64,000 nt of DNA from positions 186,001 to 250,000 of the forward strand of contig NZ_LBNQ01000009.1 of assembly GCF_001005215.1 (NCBI RefSeq), written 5' to 3'. Position 1 is the first letter of the stretch. Every line of letters begins with the position of its first letter. The notes under the pieces are model-generated. The model saw only the letters and a program-made list of their open reading frames with translations. It was not told where the DNA came from and did no database searches. A program made the position numbers and the translations under genes. The stretch is from Lampropedia cohaerens (GTDB lineage: Bacteria > Pseudomonadota > Gammaproteobacteria > Burkholderiales > Burkholderiaceae_C). Of the stretch, positions 9,663 to 40,277 are shown piece after piece.

Positions 9663-9859
9663 CGAGCCCTTTTTCTCCCTTTGCGCGCCAATCAGCCCAG
9701 CTGGTCGCTCGGCTTGGCCAGAGCTGGTCGGTTTGGCTTGATGGGCCAGCGCGGCACAGCGGTGCAGCCTTGGTCGCTGCCGGCCCTGGCCATAGTCATT
9801 TGCCGCAAGGGGGAGGCGCTTTAAGCGCGTGGCGGGCGCCAATAGTAGTCTGATTGCGG

Positions 9860-11464
9860 ATGGGAATGGAACAAGATTTTGCAGCGGCCGTGCCGCATGG
9901 CACGGAAGATGGTATCTGGCAGCTTTGTCTGGATCGGCTGGCCCTGGAAGTGCCGCCCCAGCAGTTCGGCACGTGGCTCAAGCCGCTGCAGGCACAGTAC
10001 GCATCGTCCGATGGGTGCCTGCGGTTGCTGGCACCCAACCGGATTGCGCTGGACTACATCCGGGGTCGCTATCTTGAGCGCATCGGTGCGCTGTTGCGAG
10101 AGCTCAGCGGCCAGCAGTCCCTGCGCATCGAGCTGGGCGTGGCGCGCCGGGCGACTGGCGCAGGGGGTGTCGCGCAACGCGCAGCGCGCGTGGCGGCAGT
10201 GGCCGCCTCCACTACCACTTCGGCACAGGGGCTGGCCGCACAGTTCGGGACCCAGCTGCGGGCCCGTGAACAGGCCCAGGGGCATCTGAATCTGACCAGG
10301 CAACCGGTTGCGCCGCTGCATGCTGCGGCGCAGGCGACCTATGACGACGCCAACGGCTATGGCATGCAGGCTGGGCTGGATCTGCCGGCCCCGCCTGCTG
10401 ATGCGCAGGATGAGGCGACGGCAGCCGGACCAGCGTCAGCGCCGCCGTCGCGGCTGAATCCGCAGCTGACCTTCGAGACCCTGATTGAGGGCTCGGCCAA
10501 CCGCATGGCGCGGGCAGCGGCGCTGCATGTGGCGCATGCGCCCGGCCAGCTCTACAACCCGCTGTTCATCTATGGCGGCGTCGGCTTGGGCAAGACCCAC
10601 CTGATGCATGCGGTGGGCAACCAGACGCTGGCCGACAAGCCGGATGCGAAGGTGCTCTACATCCATGCCGAGCAGTTCGTTACCGACGTGGTCAAGTCCT
10701 ACCAGCGCAAGACGTTCGATGCGCTCAAGCAACGCTATCACTCGCTGGATATCCTGCTGATCGACGATGTGCAATTCATCGCAGGCAAGGAGCGCACGCA
10801 GGAGGAGTTCTTCAATGCGTTTGAGGCGCTGCTGTCGAAGAAGTCGCACATCGTCATGACCAGCGATACCTATCCCAAGGGATTGACGGACATTCATGAG
10901 CGGCTGGTTTCGCGCTTTGACGCCGGGCTGACGGTGGCCATCGAGCCGCCCGAGTTGGAGATGCGCGTGGCGATCCTGATCAACAAGGCCAAGGCCGAGG
11001 GCATTGCGCTGTCGGAGGATGTGGCCTTCTTCATCGCCAAGAACGTGCGCTCGAACGTGCGCGAGCTCGAAGGCGCGCTGCGCAAGGTGCTGGCCTATGC
11101 ACGCTTTAATGGCAAGGACATCTCCATTCCCGTAGCGCGCGAGGCGCTGCGCGACCTGCTGTCGATCCAGAACCGCCAGATCAGCATCGAGAACATCCAG
11201 AAGACGGTGGCCGACTTCTACAAGATCAAGGTGGCCGACATGTACAGCAAGAAGCGCCCGGCCAGCATTGCGCGCCCGCGCCAGATTGCCATGTACCTGG
11301 CCAAGGAGCTGACCCAAAAGAGCCTGCCCGAGATTGGCGAGATGTTCGGCGGGCGTGACCACACCACGGTGCTGCACGCGGTGCGCAAGATCGGCCAGGA
11401 GCGCCAGCAGCAAATCGAGCTGAACCAGCAGCTGCACGTGCTGGAGCAGACCCTCAAGCGTTGA
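9860..11464 (+). CDS. dnaA: Chromosomal replication initiator protein DnaA
   Basis: Replication initiator, about 534 aa. An N-terminal domain I ([20 protein letters not shown]) is followed by a long variable linker, then the AAA+ domain. Walker A is [16 protein letters not shown] near residue 239 and Walker [21 protein letters not shown] near 300. The C-terminal DnaA-box-binding domain ends the protein, with [14 protein letters not shown]. Start codons at 9860 and 9866 are both possible (a TTG at 9854 is also in frame), and no strong ribosome site decides. It is followed by dnaN and gyrB. Confidence 0.97.
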
Positions 11465-11650
11465 TGCCGTTGCCGAGATGCGGGCTTTTCTCAACAAAAA
11501 CACGGGCTTGCCCGCGTTCTGTGGCCAACTGCCAAGTGGCTGATTTTTCGTAGAAAATAGGGTCTTTGCCCGTTTGTGGCAGAGAGTGGTCAGGCACCAG
11601 TGCTGCCGGTTTCCCACCCGCAACCCGAACCCGATACATGGAGTGACAAG

Positions 11651-12811
11651 GTGATTGTTTTCAAAGCCCCCCAGGACACGGTCCTTTCGGTTCTGCAATC
11701 CATCGCGGGCATCGTCGAGCGCAGGCACACGCTGCCGATTCTGGCCAACGTGCTGCTGCGCAAGACCGGCAATACCCTGCAGCTGACCACCAGCGATCTG
11801 GAAGTGCAGATTCGCACCAGTGCCGATCTCGGTGGGGATGCCGCAGCGGACTTTGCCACCACCATCGGCGCGCGCAAGCTCATCGAAATCCTGCGCACCT
11901 TCCAGCCGGATCAGACTGTTACGCTGGAGTCCTCGCAGGACCGCTTTGTCCTCAAGGGCGGCAAGAGCCGCTTTACCCTGCAGTCGCTGCCGGCAGCGGA
12001 CTTCCCGCTGGTGCAGGAGTCGCCCAACTACGGACCGGCGTTCTCGATTCCGCAGGCGGTGTTCAAGCACCTGCTCGGGCAAGTGGCCTTTGCGATGGCG
12101 GTGCAGGATATCCGCTACTACCTCAACGGCATCCTGTTCGTCGCCGAAGGGCGCACGCTGAGCTTGGTGGCGACCGACGGGCACCGGCTGGCGTTTGCCA
12201 GCGCGACGCTGGACGCGGACGTGCCCAAGCAGGAAGTGATCCTGCCGCGCAAGACGGTTGTCGAGCTGCAGCGCCTGCTGCGCAACGTGCCCGAACCCAA
12301 GGACACGCGGCAGAGCGACACCGCCGAGCCTGCTGAGGCACCGGCCATGATCCAGTTCCAGTTTGCCAACAACCAGGCCAAGCTGAGCTTCAATGGGCTC
12401 GAATTCGTCACCAAGCTGGTCGAGGGCAAGTTCCCGGACTACAACCGGGTCATCCCCGTGGGCTATACCAACAGCGTCACGCTGGGCCGCCAGGCCCTGC
12501 AGGCCAGCCTGCAGCGCATGACTATCATGACCAGCGACAAGTTCAAGGGCGTGCGCCTGAACTTCGAACCAGGCGTGCTGCGCATCAGCTCCGCCAACGC
12601 CGAGCAGGAGGAGGCGCAGGACGAGCTGGAAATCGACTATGGCGGCCCAAAGGTCGAGTCCGGCTTCAACGTCAGCTATCTGCTCGACGTGCTGGGCAAC
12701 ATCTCGCAGGACATGGTCAACTTTGCCTTCGAAGATGGCAGCAGCTCGGCACTGATCAGCATCCCGGGAGATGCCAACTTCAAGTACGTGGTGATGCCCA
12801 TGCGCATTTGA
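11651..12811 (+). CDS. dnaN: DNA polymerase III subunit beta (sliding clamp)
   Basis: Sliding clamp that tethers DNA polymerase III to DNA, 386 aa. The N-terminus MIVFKAPQDTVL and the segment SIAGIVERRHTLPILANVLL are strongly family-typical, and the protein ends in the clamp C-terminus YVVMPMRI. I start at the GTG at 11651: the reading frame is open further upstream, but the homologous N-terminus begins here, preceded by GGAG at suitable spacing. The central segment (PEPKDTRQSDTAEPAEAPA) looks like a short insertion relative to E. coli DnaN (366 aa). Confidence 0.96.
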   Translation: MIVFKAPQDTVLSVLQSIAGIVERRHTLPILANVLLRKTGNTLQLTTSDLEVQIRTSADLGGDAAADFATTIGARKLIEILRTFQPDQTVTLESSQDRFVLKGGKSRFTLQSLPAADFPLVQESPNYGPAFSIPQAVFKHLLGQVAFAMAVQDIRYYLNGILFVAEGRTLSLVATDGHRLAFASATLDADVPKQEVILPRKTVVELQRLLRNVPEPKDTRQSDTAEPAEAPAMIQFQFANNQAKLSFNGLEFVTKLVEGKFPDYNRVIPVGYTNSVTLGRQALQASLQRMTIMTSDKFKGVRLNFEPGVLRISSANAEQEEAQDELEIDYGGPKVESGFNVSYLLDVLGNISQDMVNFAFEDGSSSALISIPGDANFKYVVMPMRI

Positions 12812-12984
12812 TTGATGGCAGAGATAGGTGGTAAATGCTTGTTTTTCAAGGATTCGCCACCATGTCTACAGATAGAGATATCCATAAATAGAGTTCACCG
12901 CACGGCTGCACAGGGTTCCGGTGCAGCAGGTGTTTGGGGTCAGACCAAGAAGTCGCTGGATTTTGCGCGCTGGCCTTGCAGTAG

Positions 12985-15585
<2,601 letters not shown>

Positions 15586-35433: not shown

Positions 35434-37581
35434 ATGTGGGTGGATAGTCGCAAGTCGCAGGTGTTGTGGGCACTGGTGGTGGCAGTCGGTGCTGCCATGC
35501 CTGCCGTTGGCTGGACGCAGGGCGCTGACGCCGAGCCGGGCGCAGCGGATGTGCCGACGCTGGATACCGTGGAGGTCACCGCCACGCGGCAAGGCGGTAC
35601 GCTGCTGCAGACACCGGCATCGGTCCAGGTGGTCGAAGGCACCGCCTTTGCCAATGGCCTGCAGGTCAATCTCTCGGAAGCGCTCGGGCGGGTGCCGGGG
35701 CTGCAGGTGCAGAACCGCCACAACTACGCGCAGGATCTGCAGATCATCATGCGGGGATTCGGTGCCCGCTCCACGTTTGGCGTGCGCGGCATCCGCATCT
35801 ATGTGGACGACATTCCTGCCACCATGCCCGATGGGCAAGGGCAGACCTCGAACATCGACATCACTTCGCTGGACCGTATCGAGGTCCTCAATGGGCCGTT
35901 TTCCTCGATCTACGGCAATGCCGCAGGTGGCGTGCTGCAGATGTACACGGCCGCCGGCACGAACCCTCCGAGCGTGACGGTGCACACCGCCGCCGGCAGT
36001 GACGGTGCGTTGCGCTATGGCGTGCAGGCGCAGGGCCGCCGGGACGTCGAGCAGGGTCTGGAAGACTACAACCTCAGCGCCACCCGCTTCGAGACCGATG
36101 GCTACCGCGACCACAGCGAAGCGCGCCGCGGCATCGTCAACGCCCGTCTGGGCGTGCGGCTCAATGACACCAACCGGCTCAAGCTCGTCGCCAACCATGT
36201 GGACATCCGGGCCCAGGATCCGCTGGGCATGACGCGTGCGCAGATGGAAACCGACCGGCGCGCGGCGGTTAGTCGGGCGCATGATTACAACACCCGCAAG
36301 AAGGTCAAGCAGTCCCAGCTGGGCGCGGTGTGGGAGTCGCACCTGAACGCCGACAACCTGCTGCGCATGATGGCCTACCATGGCCAGCGCGAGACGCGCC
36401 AGTACCAGTCCATTCCGCCGGCACCACAGCTGAGCAACCGCGGCCATGCCGGAGGCATCATTGATCTGGAGCGCCAGTACTCGGGGCTGGACGTGCGTCT
36501 GACCAGTGCGCAGCAGTGGCAGGGCAGGGACGTGCTGCTGATTGCCGGGCTGGCCTATGACCACCTGCGCGAGCAGCGCCGCGGCTTCGAGAATTTCATT
36601 GGCAGCGGCGCCCAGCAGCAGCTGGGCGTGCAGGGCGCATTGCGGCGCGACGAGACCAATACGGTATGGAACATTGACCCCTACGTGCAGGCCAGCATCG
36701 GCTTTGCGCCGGGTTGGAACCTGGACGCCGGGCTGCGCTACAGCCGCGTGCGATTTCGCTCGCGCGACCATTACATCGCCGAGCGCAATGGCGATGACAG
36801 CGGCAGTGCCCGCTACAGTGCCCTGCTGCCATCACTGGCACTGCGCAAGGACCTGACCGACGAGGTCAGCGTGTACGGCTCGTACGGGCGCGGGTTCGAG
36901 ACCCCGACGACCAACGAGCTCTCCTACCGCCCGGATGGCTCGCCCGGACTGAACCTGGCGCTGCGGCCGGCCGAGAGCGACAACTGGGAGCTGGGGCTTA
37001 AGGCGGCCATGCCCTTTGATGGGCTGGCGACGGTGGCGCTGTTTCGCACCGACACCGATGACGAGATCGTCAATGCCGGCAGCAGCAATGGCCGCAGCAG
37101 TTTTCACAATGCGGGCAAAACCCGCCGCGACGGTCTGGAGCTGGCCTATAGCACCCGTTTTCTTGGAGAGGGTCGCATTGATGCCGCCTATACCTATCTG
37201 AAGGCGCAGTACCGCACCGGCAGCAATCGCTTCGCCAGCGGCGCATCGATTCCGGGTATCCCTAAGCAGTCGTTCTATCTGGGGGCGTCCTGGGCGCCTG
37301 CGCAGGGCTGGCAGGCGGGCGCCGAGCTGCGCCATGTAGGCCGGATATACGTCAACGATGCCAATTCCGATGCCGCCAGCGCCTATACGCTGCTGGGCCT
37401 GCACGCAGGGTATGTCTGGCAGCTCGGAGCCTGGAACCTGCGCAGCTTCGCGCGGCTGGACAACGCCCTGGACAAGAACTATGTGGGGTCGGTCATCGTC
37501 AACGACGGCAATGGGCGGTTCTTCGAGCCGGCACCGGGCCGCAGCTGGACGGCGGGCGTGACGTTGCGGCGCGATTTCTGA
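35434..37581 (+). CDS. pqqU: TonB-dependent outer-membrane receptor, PqqU (YncD)-like PQQ importer
   Basis: Outer-membrane receptor, 715 aa. Signal peptide about residues 1-30, TonB box DTVEVTA at 44-50, plug domain about 57-170, then the barrel. From memory it is strikingly similar along its length to E. coli YncD/PqqU, recently shown to import pyrroloquinoline quinone: shared stretches include VPGLQVQNR, NYAQDLQ, IPATMPDGQGQTSNID, FETPT-NELSYR, TDTDDEIV, NAGKTRR and YVGSVIVN. The start at 35434 has AGGAG about 10 nt upstream and gives a proper signal peptide. Next to it is a gene for a PQQ-dependent dehydrogenase, which supports the PQQ assignment. Confidence 0.85.
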   Translation: MWVDSRKSQVLWALVVAVGAAMPAVGWTQGADAEPGAADVPTLDTVEVTATRQGGTLLQTPASVQVVEGTAFANGLQVNLSEALGRVPGLQVQNRHNYAQDLQIIMRGFGARSTFGVRGIRIYVDDIPATMPDGQGQTSNIDITSLDRIEVLNGPFSSIYGNAAGGVLQMYTAAGTNPPSVTVHTAAGSDGALRYGVQAQGRRDVEQGLEDYNLSATRFETDGYRDHSEARRGIVNARLGVRLNDTNRLKLVANHVDIRAQDPLGMTRAQMETDRRAAVSRAHDYNTRKKVKQSQLGAVWESHLNADNLLRMMAYHGQRETRQYQSIPPAPQLSNRGHAGGIIDLERQYSGLDVRLTSAQQWQGRDVLLIAGLAYDHLREQRRGFENFIGSGAQQQLGVQGALRRDETNTVWNIDPYVQASIGFAPGWNLDAGLRYSRVRFRSRDHYIAERNGDDSGSARYSALLPSLALRKDLTDEVSVYGSYGRGFETPTTNELSYRPDGSPGLNLALRPAESDNWELGLKAAMPFDGLATVALFRTDTDDEIVNAGSSNGRSSFHNAGKTRRDGLELAYSTRFLGEGRIDAAYTYLKAQYRTGSNRFASGASIPGIPKQSFYLGASWAPAQGWQAGAELRHVGRIYVNDANSDAASAYTLLGLHAGYVWQLGAWNLRSFARLDNALDKNYVGSVIVNDGNGRFFEPAPGRSWTAGVTLRRDF

Positions 37582-37760
37582 CGGCTGCGCGCAGGCCGCG
37601 GCAAGGCGTGAGCGCAACAGGGCTGGAGGCGGCGCCCGGCGCCCACGACACGTTGGCTTGAGGGGCTTGGCGCGCTCGCGCAAGGCATGAGTGGTTGCAG
37701 GCGTGATGGCAGCGACGCGCGTGCAATTAGTTGTTCGTTCGCAGCCTTATCTGGGGAACC

Positions 37761-40277
37761 ATGAAAAACGACAATCATGAGCCGGGAGCATGGGGGACGG
37801 TCTACCGTTACCTGTTTCTTGTGCTGACATTGGTCACTGGTCTGGTACTGGTGACGTGGGGGGCAAGCTCGTCAGTCTGGGCGGCAGCGCCTATTACCTG
37901 ATCGCCGGCATCGCTTACCTGGCGATGGTGGTGCTGTACTTCCTGCGCCACAGGCTGGCGCTGTGGTTGTCTGCGCTGACGTTTGCGGCCACCGTGGTGT
38001 GGGCACTCTCGGAGGTGGGTTGAGCTTTTGGCTGCTGCTGCCGCGTCTGGTGGTGCCGGCGCTGCTCTTCATGCTCAGCCTGTGGCTGACGGGCCAGCTG
38101 CGCGGCGCTGCGAGCAAGGGCTGCTCGCGCATTGCCAACGGTGCGGGCGTGGTCGTTTTCGTGGCGCTGCTGGCAACGCTGGGCGCGGCATTCGTGCCAC
38201 AAGGCGTGATTCGTAACGAGGTGGCACTGGTGCAGGATCCGGCGCTGGCGACGGAGAATCCGGAAAATCCTGCCGACTGGCGTTACTTCGGTCGCAGCGA
38301 GAACGCCACCAAGTTCGCGCCGTACTCGGACATCACGCCCGAGAACGTTGACAAGCTGCAGGTGGCCTGGACGTACAAGACGGGCCGCGATGGCCGGGGC
38401 AATGACGCCAATACGCTGCAGCAAATCGGTGGCGTGCTGTATTCGTGCACGCCGTTGAATGTGGTCACGGCGCTGGATGTCGACACGGGCGAGGAGCTGT
38501 GGCGGTTCGATCCCAAGATCGAGCCAAGAACCTCGCACCTGACCTGTCGCGTTGGCTATTACGACGCCAGCACGGATCCGGTGGTGGCCTCGCCGGCGTT
38601 GGTACAGCCCCTGCAGGATGATGCATCGTCGGTACCGGACGTGGCCGCCGCCACTGCGCCGACGCAGCAGCCATCGGGCGCGTGCGTGCAGCGCATCCTG
38701 CTGTCGACGGTCGATGCCAACCTGTGGGCGCTGGATGCGCAGACCGGCAAGCCCTGCGAGGACTTCGGCAACGGTGGTGTGGTCGATCTGAAGGTCGTCG
38801 GCATGGGCGAGACGCAAAACGGCCGCTTCTACCACCCGACGGCGGCGCCGACGGTGGCCGGCAATCTGGTCATCATTGGCGGCTGGGTCATGGACATTGC
38901 GCCAACGGCAGCGCCTGGCGTGGTGCGGGCCTTTGACGCGCGCACGGGAGATCTGGTATGGGCCTTTGACCCGCGCACGGGAGATCTGGTATGGGCCTTT
39001 GACCCGGGCAACCCCGAAGGAAACCGCCACGGTCCCGCGCCGGGTGAGACCTATACCATGGGCACGCCCAATGTGTGGGGGCCGATGTCGTTCGACCTGG
39101 ATCTGGGCCTGGTGTTCATGCCCACCGGCAATGGGCCGACCGACTACTGGGGCGGCGCACGTACCGAGGCATCGGAGAAGTACGGCAGCGCGGTGGTCGC
39201 GCTGGATCTGGCCACGGGCGAAAACGCTGGGTGTTCCAGCTGGTGCACCACGATGTCTGGGACTATGACACGCCGTCGCAACCGACGCTGTATACGCTCA
39301 AGAACAAGCAGGGCGAGGATGTGCCGGCGCTGCTCCAGACCTCCAAGTCCGGGCAGATCTTCGTGCTGGATCGCCGCACGGGCCAGCCGCTGTACGACGT
39401 CGAAGAAAAGCCCGTCCCGCAAGAGGGGATGCTCGAAGGCGAACGCCTCTCGCCCACGCAACCCTTCTCGGTAGAGCTGCCCTCCATTGCCACGGATGAG
39501 CTGACGGAGGAGAAGATGTGGGGCATGACGAGGTTCGACCAGCTGTGGTGCCGCATCGACTTCAAGCAAACGGTCTACCAGGGCATTTTCCCGGTGCCGC
39601 AGGAGCGGCCCTATATCCAGTGGCCGGCGCTGCTTGGCGCGCTGAACTGGGGGGGCATCACCATCGACGAATCGCGCGGGCTGGCCTTCGTCAACTCCAT
39701 CGAGATGGCGGTGAAGATGTCGCTCAAGCGCCGTGAAGATCCCACGGTTACCGAGTACGACTACAACGGCAACAAGATGCCGAGCTTCTATGGCACGACG
39801 CGCCCGCAGGATTCCGGTCCGTACGGCGGCCTGCGGGTGGACTTCTTCGAGTCGCCGCTGGCCGTGCCTTGCACGCGCCCGCCATTTGGCACGATGACGG
39901 CGATCGACCTCAAGTCCAAGCAACTGGTGTGGCAGGTGCCCCTGGGCACCGCCGAGGAGCTGGGGCCAACGCTGTTTGGCAAGAAGACGCGGCTGGGCAT
40001 GCCGATGCCAATTGGCATGCCGTCCATCGCGGGCTCGACCGCCACGGCCTCCGGCCTGCTGTTCTTTGCCGGCACGCAGGACAAGTACATCCGCGCCTTC
40101 AACTCGCTGACTGGCGAGGAAGTCTGGCGCCATCGCCTGCCTGAAGGTGTTGCGGCGACACCGATCGTCTACCGCTCGCCCAAGACCGGCAAGCAGTACG
40201 TCGCGATTTCCGCAGGCGGCATCCGCAATGCCAAGCCGCAGACCGACGACATCATCGTCTTCGCGTTGCCGGATTAA
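37761..40277 (+). pseudogene. gcd: Frameshifted PQQ-dependent membrane glucose dehydrogenase
   Basis: A full-length homologue of membrane-bound quinoprotein glucose dehydrogenase is split over three frames. It starts at ATG 37761 (MKNDNHEPGAWG..., GGGGAA upstream). Frame breaks fall at the G6 run 37858-37863, at GGG 38017-38019, and at AAAA in the codons near 39221-39226; each is repaired by adding one base. Between them one reads the N-terminal helices (VSLGGSAYYLIAG), then the propeller (DWRYFGRSENATKF; VHHDVWDYDTPSQPTLY; PYGGLRV) to the end at FALPD. A 33-bp tandem duplication adds 11 residues. As written it cannot make the enzyme. Sequencing error is possible, but no other gene in the window shows such breaks. 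Confidence 0.85.
38939..39006 (+). repeat. 33-bp perfect tandem duplication inside gcd
   Basis: Two adjacent copies (38939-38971 and 38972-39004, matching slightly beyond) encode RTGDLVWAFDP twice, in frame. Homologous glucose dehydrogenases have the segment once, so this is a local duplication within the broken gene. Confidence 0.92.

Follow-up and report, generated by a model that had tools for sequence, protein, structure and literature searches.

The window analysed here, a 64,000-base stretch of the genome of the hot-spring bacterium Lampropedia cohaerens, contains a gene for PqqU, the TonB-dependent receptor for the vitamin-like cofactor pyrroloquinoline quinone (PQQ), and next after it, in the same orientation, a gene of the membrane-bound PQQ dehydrogenases. 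The receptor gene (pqqU, 35434–37581, + strand) is intact, the dehydrogenase gene (37761–40277, + strand) is broken, and so is the pqqE gene of a PQQ synthesis cluster on another contig. The sequence suggests a PQQ auxotroph, which would take up the cofactor for enzymes encoded elsewhere in the genome.

An intact PqqU receptor

The 715-residue product comprises a plug and a barrel, and its N-terminus appears signal-like by eye. It aligns with E. coli PqqU at 49.6% identity over 663 positions, and its best structure-sequence matches are entries 9c4o (PqqU, 681.8 bits) and 6v81 (YncD, 681.6 bits; phmmer E value 1e-203 to both), the next scoring 70.2 bits. In a scan with NCBIfam models the PqqU model ranked first with 835.4 bits, ahead of a runner-up at 182.1 bits. 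A previous interpretation of this stretch (the sequence-only reading) had proposed a PqqU/YncD-like receptor; the full-length alignment bears this out, the three motifs quoted in its support lie within the gene, and membership of another TonB family, which was checked as the alternative, is not found given the gap in score to the next match.

A PqqU signature has been defined as an aromatic residue at position 99 with Arg at 304 and 365 (Munder et al., Sci Adv 2025, PMC12124388), and the window receptor has Phe, Arg, and Arg at the aligned positions. The same paper gives 12 PQQ contacts, 11 of which were compared; position 447, printed there once as N447E, is Trp in E. coli, was taken as N477, and stands outside the count. 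Ten of the 11 are identical (Q84, Q121, K274, R304, Q308, Q310, R365, N477, Y481, and R536). The remaining one, E. coli Tyr99, is replaced by Phe, a substitution accepted by the defining paper and present in all 118 PqqU sequences compared, the window's own included (110 from a family sample described below, 2 from the genus, and 6 from named genomes). Because of the full-length alignment and the published binding-residue signature, the receptor is identified as a full-length PqqU, with PQQ binding and transport predicted.

E. coli likewise obtains PQQ through PqqU for enzymes that lack a supply of their own (PMC12124388), and the two receptors share plug, barrel, and contact residues along their whole length. 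Besides the sequence divergence and the Phe at position 99, L. cohaerens differs in carrying pqqABCD together with a pqqE that is broken. No shared gene context was found around the pqqU genes of loci L012, L013, L086, L087, and L088 (10 open reading frames (ORFs) scanned), and the yield of a scan for promoters and terminators did not exceed chance level.

A broken dehydrogenase gene beside pqqU

The gene that follows pqqU belongs to the glucose/quinate/shikimate dehydrogenase family (TIGR03074) and changes frame three times, near 37844–37868, at about 38017–38029, and at about 39207–39228. Its first stretch (37761–37853, end inferred) opens with a start codon and the residues MKNDNHEPG and encodes the first membrane helix; it was placed by eye against relatives, with no tblastn match. 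The second (37853–38023), in another frame and closed by a stop codon, encodes further membrane helices and is delimited by tblastn of relatives and codon usage. The third (38017–39222), again in a different frame, holds the N-terminal part of the propeller, as indicated by the same two methods and by residue alignment, and includes a 33-bp in-frame tandem repeat of 2.5 copies (38927–39010) that is probably a duplication. The fourth (39216–40277) shifts frame once more and carries the C-terminal propeller part through to the normal stop codon. All four lie on the + strand.

Related dehydrogenases from 16 loci (10 from the family sample and 5 from the genus, with the pair of genome G105 and the L. 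cohaerens contig 20 gene among the 16) were compared with the window copy by tblastn. All 16 match it in two frames that switch at the last of the three frame changes, and 15 of the 16 match in a third frame before position 38029. When tested as a single ORF against TIGR03074, the window copy breaks into two pieces in two frames, which score 331.1 and 406.4 bits, both below the cut-off of 832.65 bits. In the fourth stretch the residues that align with Asp466 and Lys493 of E. coli Gcd are retained; the middle piece keeps a His near Gcd His262, and the C-terminal piece reads GGIRN. His262 and His775-Gly776 are active-site residues of Gcd.

On its sequence, the gene adjoining pqqU is a pseudogene with three frame changes. 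A working pair of PqqU and adjacent dehydrogenase was considered for L. cohaerens and is ruled out, the dehydrogenase being broken. The claim that the gene next to pqqU encodes a PQQ-dependent glucose dehydrogenase thus stands as to strand and family, but the gene is broken into four frame stretches and glucose is not established as the substrate.

The pqq synthesis cluster and its split pqqE

It had also been noted that the window lacks pqqABCDE, and none of these genes occurs among its 43 scanned ORFs, nor did genome-wide searches for pqqC, pqqD, and pqqE return matches within it. The same does not hold for the genome: contig 33 carries pqqA, pqqB, pqqC, and pqqD followed by pqqE, in the order of a pqqABCDE operon, and a total absence of pqq genes is therefore rejected. 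In contrast to a canonical operon, a stop codon and a frame change interrupt pqqE; the genome-wide search for a complete operon, the finding held in advance to weaken the case for scavenging, returned this cluster without an intact pqqE. The pqqA gene, named by eye, encodes 24 residues (MQWEKPAAQNLRLGFEITMYVFNR); pqqB and pqqC exceed their family cut-offs, and pqqD exceeds that of Pfam.

The pqqE gene consists of a radical-SAM piece, which contains an internal TAG, and a SPASM piece in a different frame. As a single chain it fails the PqqE test, the pieces scoring 375.9 bits (with the internal stop) and 136.1 bits where the cut-off requires 381.35 bits. Related PqqE proteins from 10 loci, drawn from the 46 family-sample genomes with pqqE over the cut-off, all bridge the break in two frames, and alignment of the separate pieces indicates that a largely conserved stretch of 12 residues between them is missing. 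The AuxI ligands of PqqE are Cys248, 268, 323, and 325 (PMC5715301), and by these roles they would be divided between two chains in the split protein. The SPASM piece opens with ATG and contains 124 open codons; it is not called coding by codon usage, and no stretch resembling a ribosome-binding site was seen by eye before its ATG. A second pqqE was sought genome-wide and not found: the two other matches (52.6 and 47.6 bits) are partial, spanning only profile positions 10–155, and were rejected as copies. PqqE is probably inactive in this organism, judging from the state of its gene.

Candidate PQQ-dependent enzymes elsewhere in the genome

A genome search with PF01011 returned three genes: the broken one of the window, an intact one on contig 20, and one on contig 23 that matches weakly and is far better matched by PF13360 (BamB-type). 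The contig 20 dehydrogenase scores 1006.2 bits against TIGR03074 as a single ORF without a stop, above the cut-off of 832.65 bits; it is full-length and keeps the Asp and Lys equivalent to E. coli Gcd residues 466 and 493. It differs from Gcd in lacking the residues aligned to His262 and His775-Gly776 and in having RCRG and GGARQ motifs instead. The His262 and His775-Gly776 equivalents are likewise missing from the dehydrogenases of genomes G105, G202, and G203. Since the contig 20 enzyme lacks these equivalents, glucose is not a safe guess for its substrate. The name quinate dehydrogenase, which appears in 2 of the 25 rows listed from 267 plasmid annotation records, has no bearing on the substrate. 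A search with PF07995 gave two intact GSDH-type genes over the cut-off; these two soluble dehydrogenases probably use PQQ, as their family membership indicates.

On contig 20 (L018, 4713–9914) a gene for a FepA-type siderophore receptor comes next after the dehydrogenase gene, in the same orientation, a second neighbourhood of TonB receptor and quinoprotein in this genome.

Co-occurrence in the genus and family

Ten genomes of the genus were compared. PqqU is found in three of them (L. cohaerens, G202, and G203), which are the same three that have a dehydrogenase over the cut-off (Fisher p 0.008, n = 10, kinship ignored). None of the ten has a pqqE over the cut-off, the only match being the broken L. 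cohaerens copy; pqqC exceeds its cut-off in L. cohaerens only, G202 having a weak match of 44 bits. The dehydrogenase gene and pqqU of G203 face each other across 845 bases.

The family sample comprises 200 genomes, of which 179 are at least 90% complete; hits with E values up to 1e-60 were counted as PqqU homologues. PqqU occurs in 113 genomes, a membrane dehydrogenase over the cut-off in 26 (below it in three more), and pqqE over the cut-off in 46. The three-residue signature is present in all 108 receptors checked from the 113 PqqU genomes. PqqU accompanies the dehydrogenase in 24 of 26 genomes, as against 89 of the 174 others (Fisher p 3.4e-5, kinship ignored), and both dehydrogenase genomes without PqqU carry pqqE. 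Intact pqqE or PqqU is thus present in 26 of 26 dehydrogenase genomes. Sixteen of them have a dehydrogenase without an intact pqqE (L. cohaerens, G150, and 14 without any match), and every one of the 16 has a PqqU with the signature (15/15 if G150 is set aside). This pattern suggests that the membrane quinoprotein is retained only by bacteria with a means of making or importing PQQ.

An adjacent same-strand arrangement of pqqU and dehydrogenase was found in two of the 200 genomes, broken in L. cohaerens and intact in G105, which has a 793-residue dehydrogenase beside pqqU and no pqqE match. The pair envisaged in the sequence-only reading is thus present in intact form in this other member of the family. 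In the draft genome G150, which belongs to another genus, pqqE is present as two pieces on contigs C6 and C97, perhaps owing to an assembly gap.

A proposed scavenging route and its alternatives

The explanation we favour, with moderate confidence, is that L. cohaerens recently became a PQQ auxotroph that imports its neighbours' PQQ. PqqU in the outer membrane would capture PQQ made by neighbouring bacteria and, driven by TonB, pass it into the periplasm, where it would activate the intact membrane quinoprotein dehydrogenase of contig 20 and probably the two soluble GSDH-type enzymes. The product of the gene beside pqqU would not be among those activated; that gene being a pseudogene, imported PQQ must serve other enzymes. 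Synthesis would be off, the break in pqqE separating the radical-SAM core from the SPASM domain. What supports scavenging is the broken state of pqqE, whose product acts first in PQQ synthesis, together with the failure of the search to find another copy. The lesions may be recent, since codon usage still calls coding three of the four dehydrogenase stretches and the radical-SAM piece of pqqE. The cofactor-scavenging module of the sequence-only reading survives as to scavenging, but its adjacent partner is a pseudogene and the candidate partners are encoded elsewhere; the underlying idea, that uptake feeds a periplasmic quinoprotein, was probably right in substance.

Several observations weigh against this explanation. 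The receptor's 835.4 bits fall short of the curated cut-off of 1200 bits for the NCBIfam PqqU model NF041535, a cut-off that is an annotation threshold and corresponds to no functional feature. All 11 conserved PqqE cysteines survive, five on the first piece and six on the second, and the split protein may for that reason have residual activity. The genus set of 10 genomes is small, two of them being only 77–80% complete, and the genus and family comparisons both ignore kinship. Across the family PqqU is commoner in genomes with pqqE (35 of 46) than in the others (78 of 154), a positive association (p 0.002), so PqqU does not generally replace synthesis. Simple replacement is also at odds with 62 PqqU genomes in which both pqqE and a TIGR03074 dehydrogenase over the cut-off are missing, the latter being the one quinoprotein family that the count covers. 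Finally, the lesions are known from one draft assembly, for which the published account gives coverage as “>10x” in its table and 3.06 Gb of clean bases in its text (PMC5015223).

This last point bears on the first alternative, that the frame changes and the stop codon are assembly or sequencing errors and that pqqE and two membrane dehydrogenases are functional. The L. cohaerens genome (3,158,922 bases, 41 contigs, completeness listed as 100%, window GC content 63.57%) corresponds to that described for CT6T (3,158,922 bp, 41 contigs, 63.5% GC), a draft assembled with ABySS 1.3.5, which leaves room for such errors; it was, however, sequenced on an Illumina HiSeq 2000, with 3.06 Gb of clean bases for 3.16 Mb (PMC5015223). 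Of 40 other ORFs in the window, 37 have Pfam matches (E values up to 1e-6), and among the 40 there are no neighbours holding consecutive parts of one family, in a scan that covered the window except for its last 10 kb and some shorter ORFs. The pqqE gene moreover has a stop codon besides its frame change, and the listed completeness is full. A codon-usage scan of 511,903 bases flagged three of 91 same-strand frame switches: the window dehydrogenase and one place each in L105 and L110, the last probably just a 58-base intergenic gap. The scan makes a poor control because it missed the break at 38017 and did not call the SPASM piece coding, and the argument therefore draws on the sequencing method and on the Pfam results. 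Error as the source of the lesions is, on these grounds, unlikely.

The switch flagged in L105 (contig 33, 60001–80000) lies at its low-coordinate end on the minus strand and is a possible frame change within a long coding stretch. Elsewhere in the window, dnaA, dnaN, and gyrB occur in order at 9854–15582, an arrangement typical of a replication origin region.

A second alternative is that the whole PQQ system is decaying, PqqU being a relic or a receptor for another ligand and PQQ no longer used. Two PQQ genes are already broken, and the published account describes an inability to use carbohydrates (PMC5015223), both of which would fit. Against this stand the intact PqqU with its PQQ contact residues, the intact contig 20 dehydrogenase with its Asp466 and Lys493 equivalents, and the two intact GSDH-type genes, and we regard general decay as quite improbable. 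The least probable alternative is that the cell still makes PQQ, with PqqE working as two assembling polypeptides and PqqU only recovering leaked cofactor: the surviving cysteines, the open SPASM piece with its ATG, the intact appearance of pqqA–pqqD, and the family-wide tendency of pqqE and PqqU to co-occur speak for it, but the 12 missing conserved residues, the division of the AuxI ligands, the SPASM piece's lack of a coding call and of a visible ribosome-binding-like stretch, and the behaviour of Methylobacterium PqqE AuxI mutants, of which C268S and C323S proved highly unstable, even though C323S still cleaved SAM once reconstituted (PMC5715301), make it very unlikely.

Relation to the published record and significance

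PqqU-based scavenging, including in the Burkholderiales, is already in print (PMC12124388), in a paper whose main text contains neither the word Lampropedia nor the word pseudogene. Among open-licence papers, a literature search turned up none that reports a broken pqqE for Lampropedia, and only PMC5015223 treats Lampropedia together with PQQ. That account of CT6T describes a PQQ synthase system with pqqB, pqqD, and pqqE, three copies of glucose dehydrogenase, and zero pseudogenes. The three copies plausibly correspond to the contig 20 gene and pieces of the broken gene. The sequence contradicts the picture of intact synthesis and no pseudogenes given there.

The import of neighbours' PQQ by a recent auxotroph leads to a broader and more tentative proposal, to which we give somewhat less than even credence: L. 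cohaerens may be turning from a PQQ maker into an obligate scavenger, with PqqU kept, pqqE and a spare quinoprotein decayed, and pqqABCD and the other quinoproteins still intact. G202 and G203, two other species of the genus, which have PqqU and a dehydrogenase and no pqqE or pqqC over the cut-off, may be further along the same path, or may never have been makers. As a natural strain with a broken pqqE, L. cohaerens would allow dependence on PqqU and on neighbouring bacteria for PQQ to be tested.

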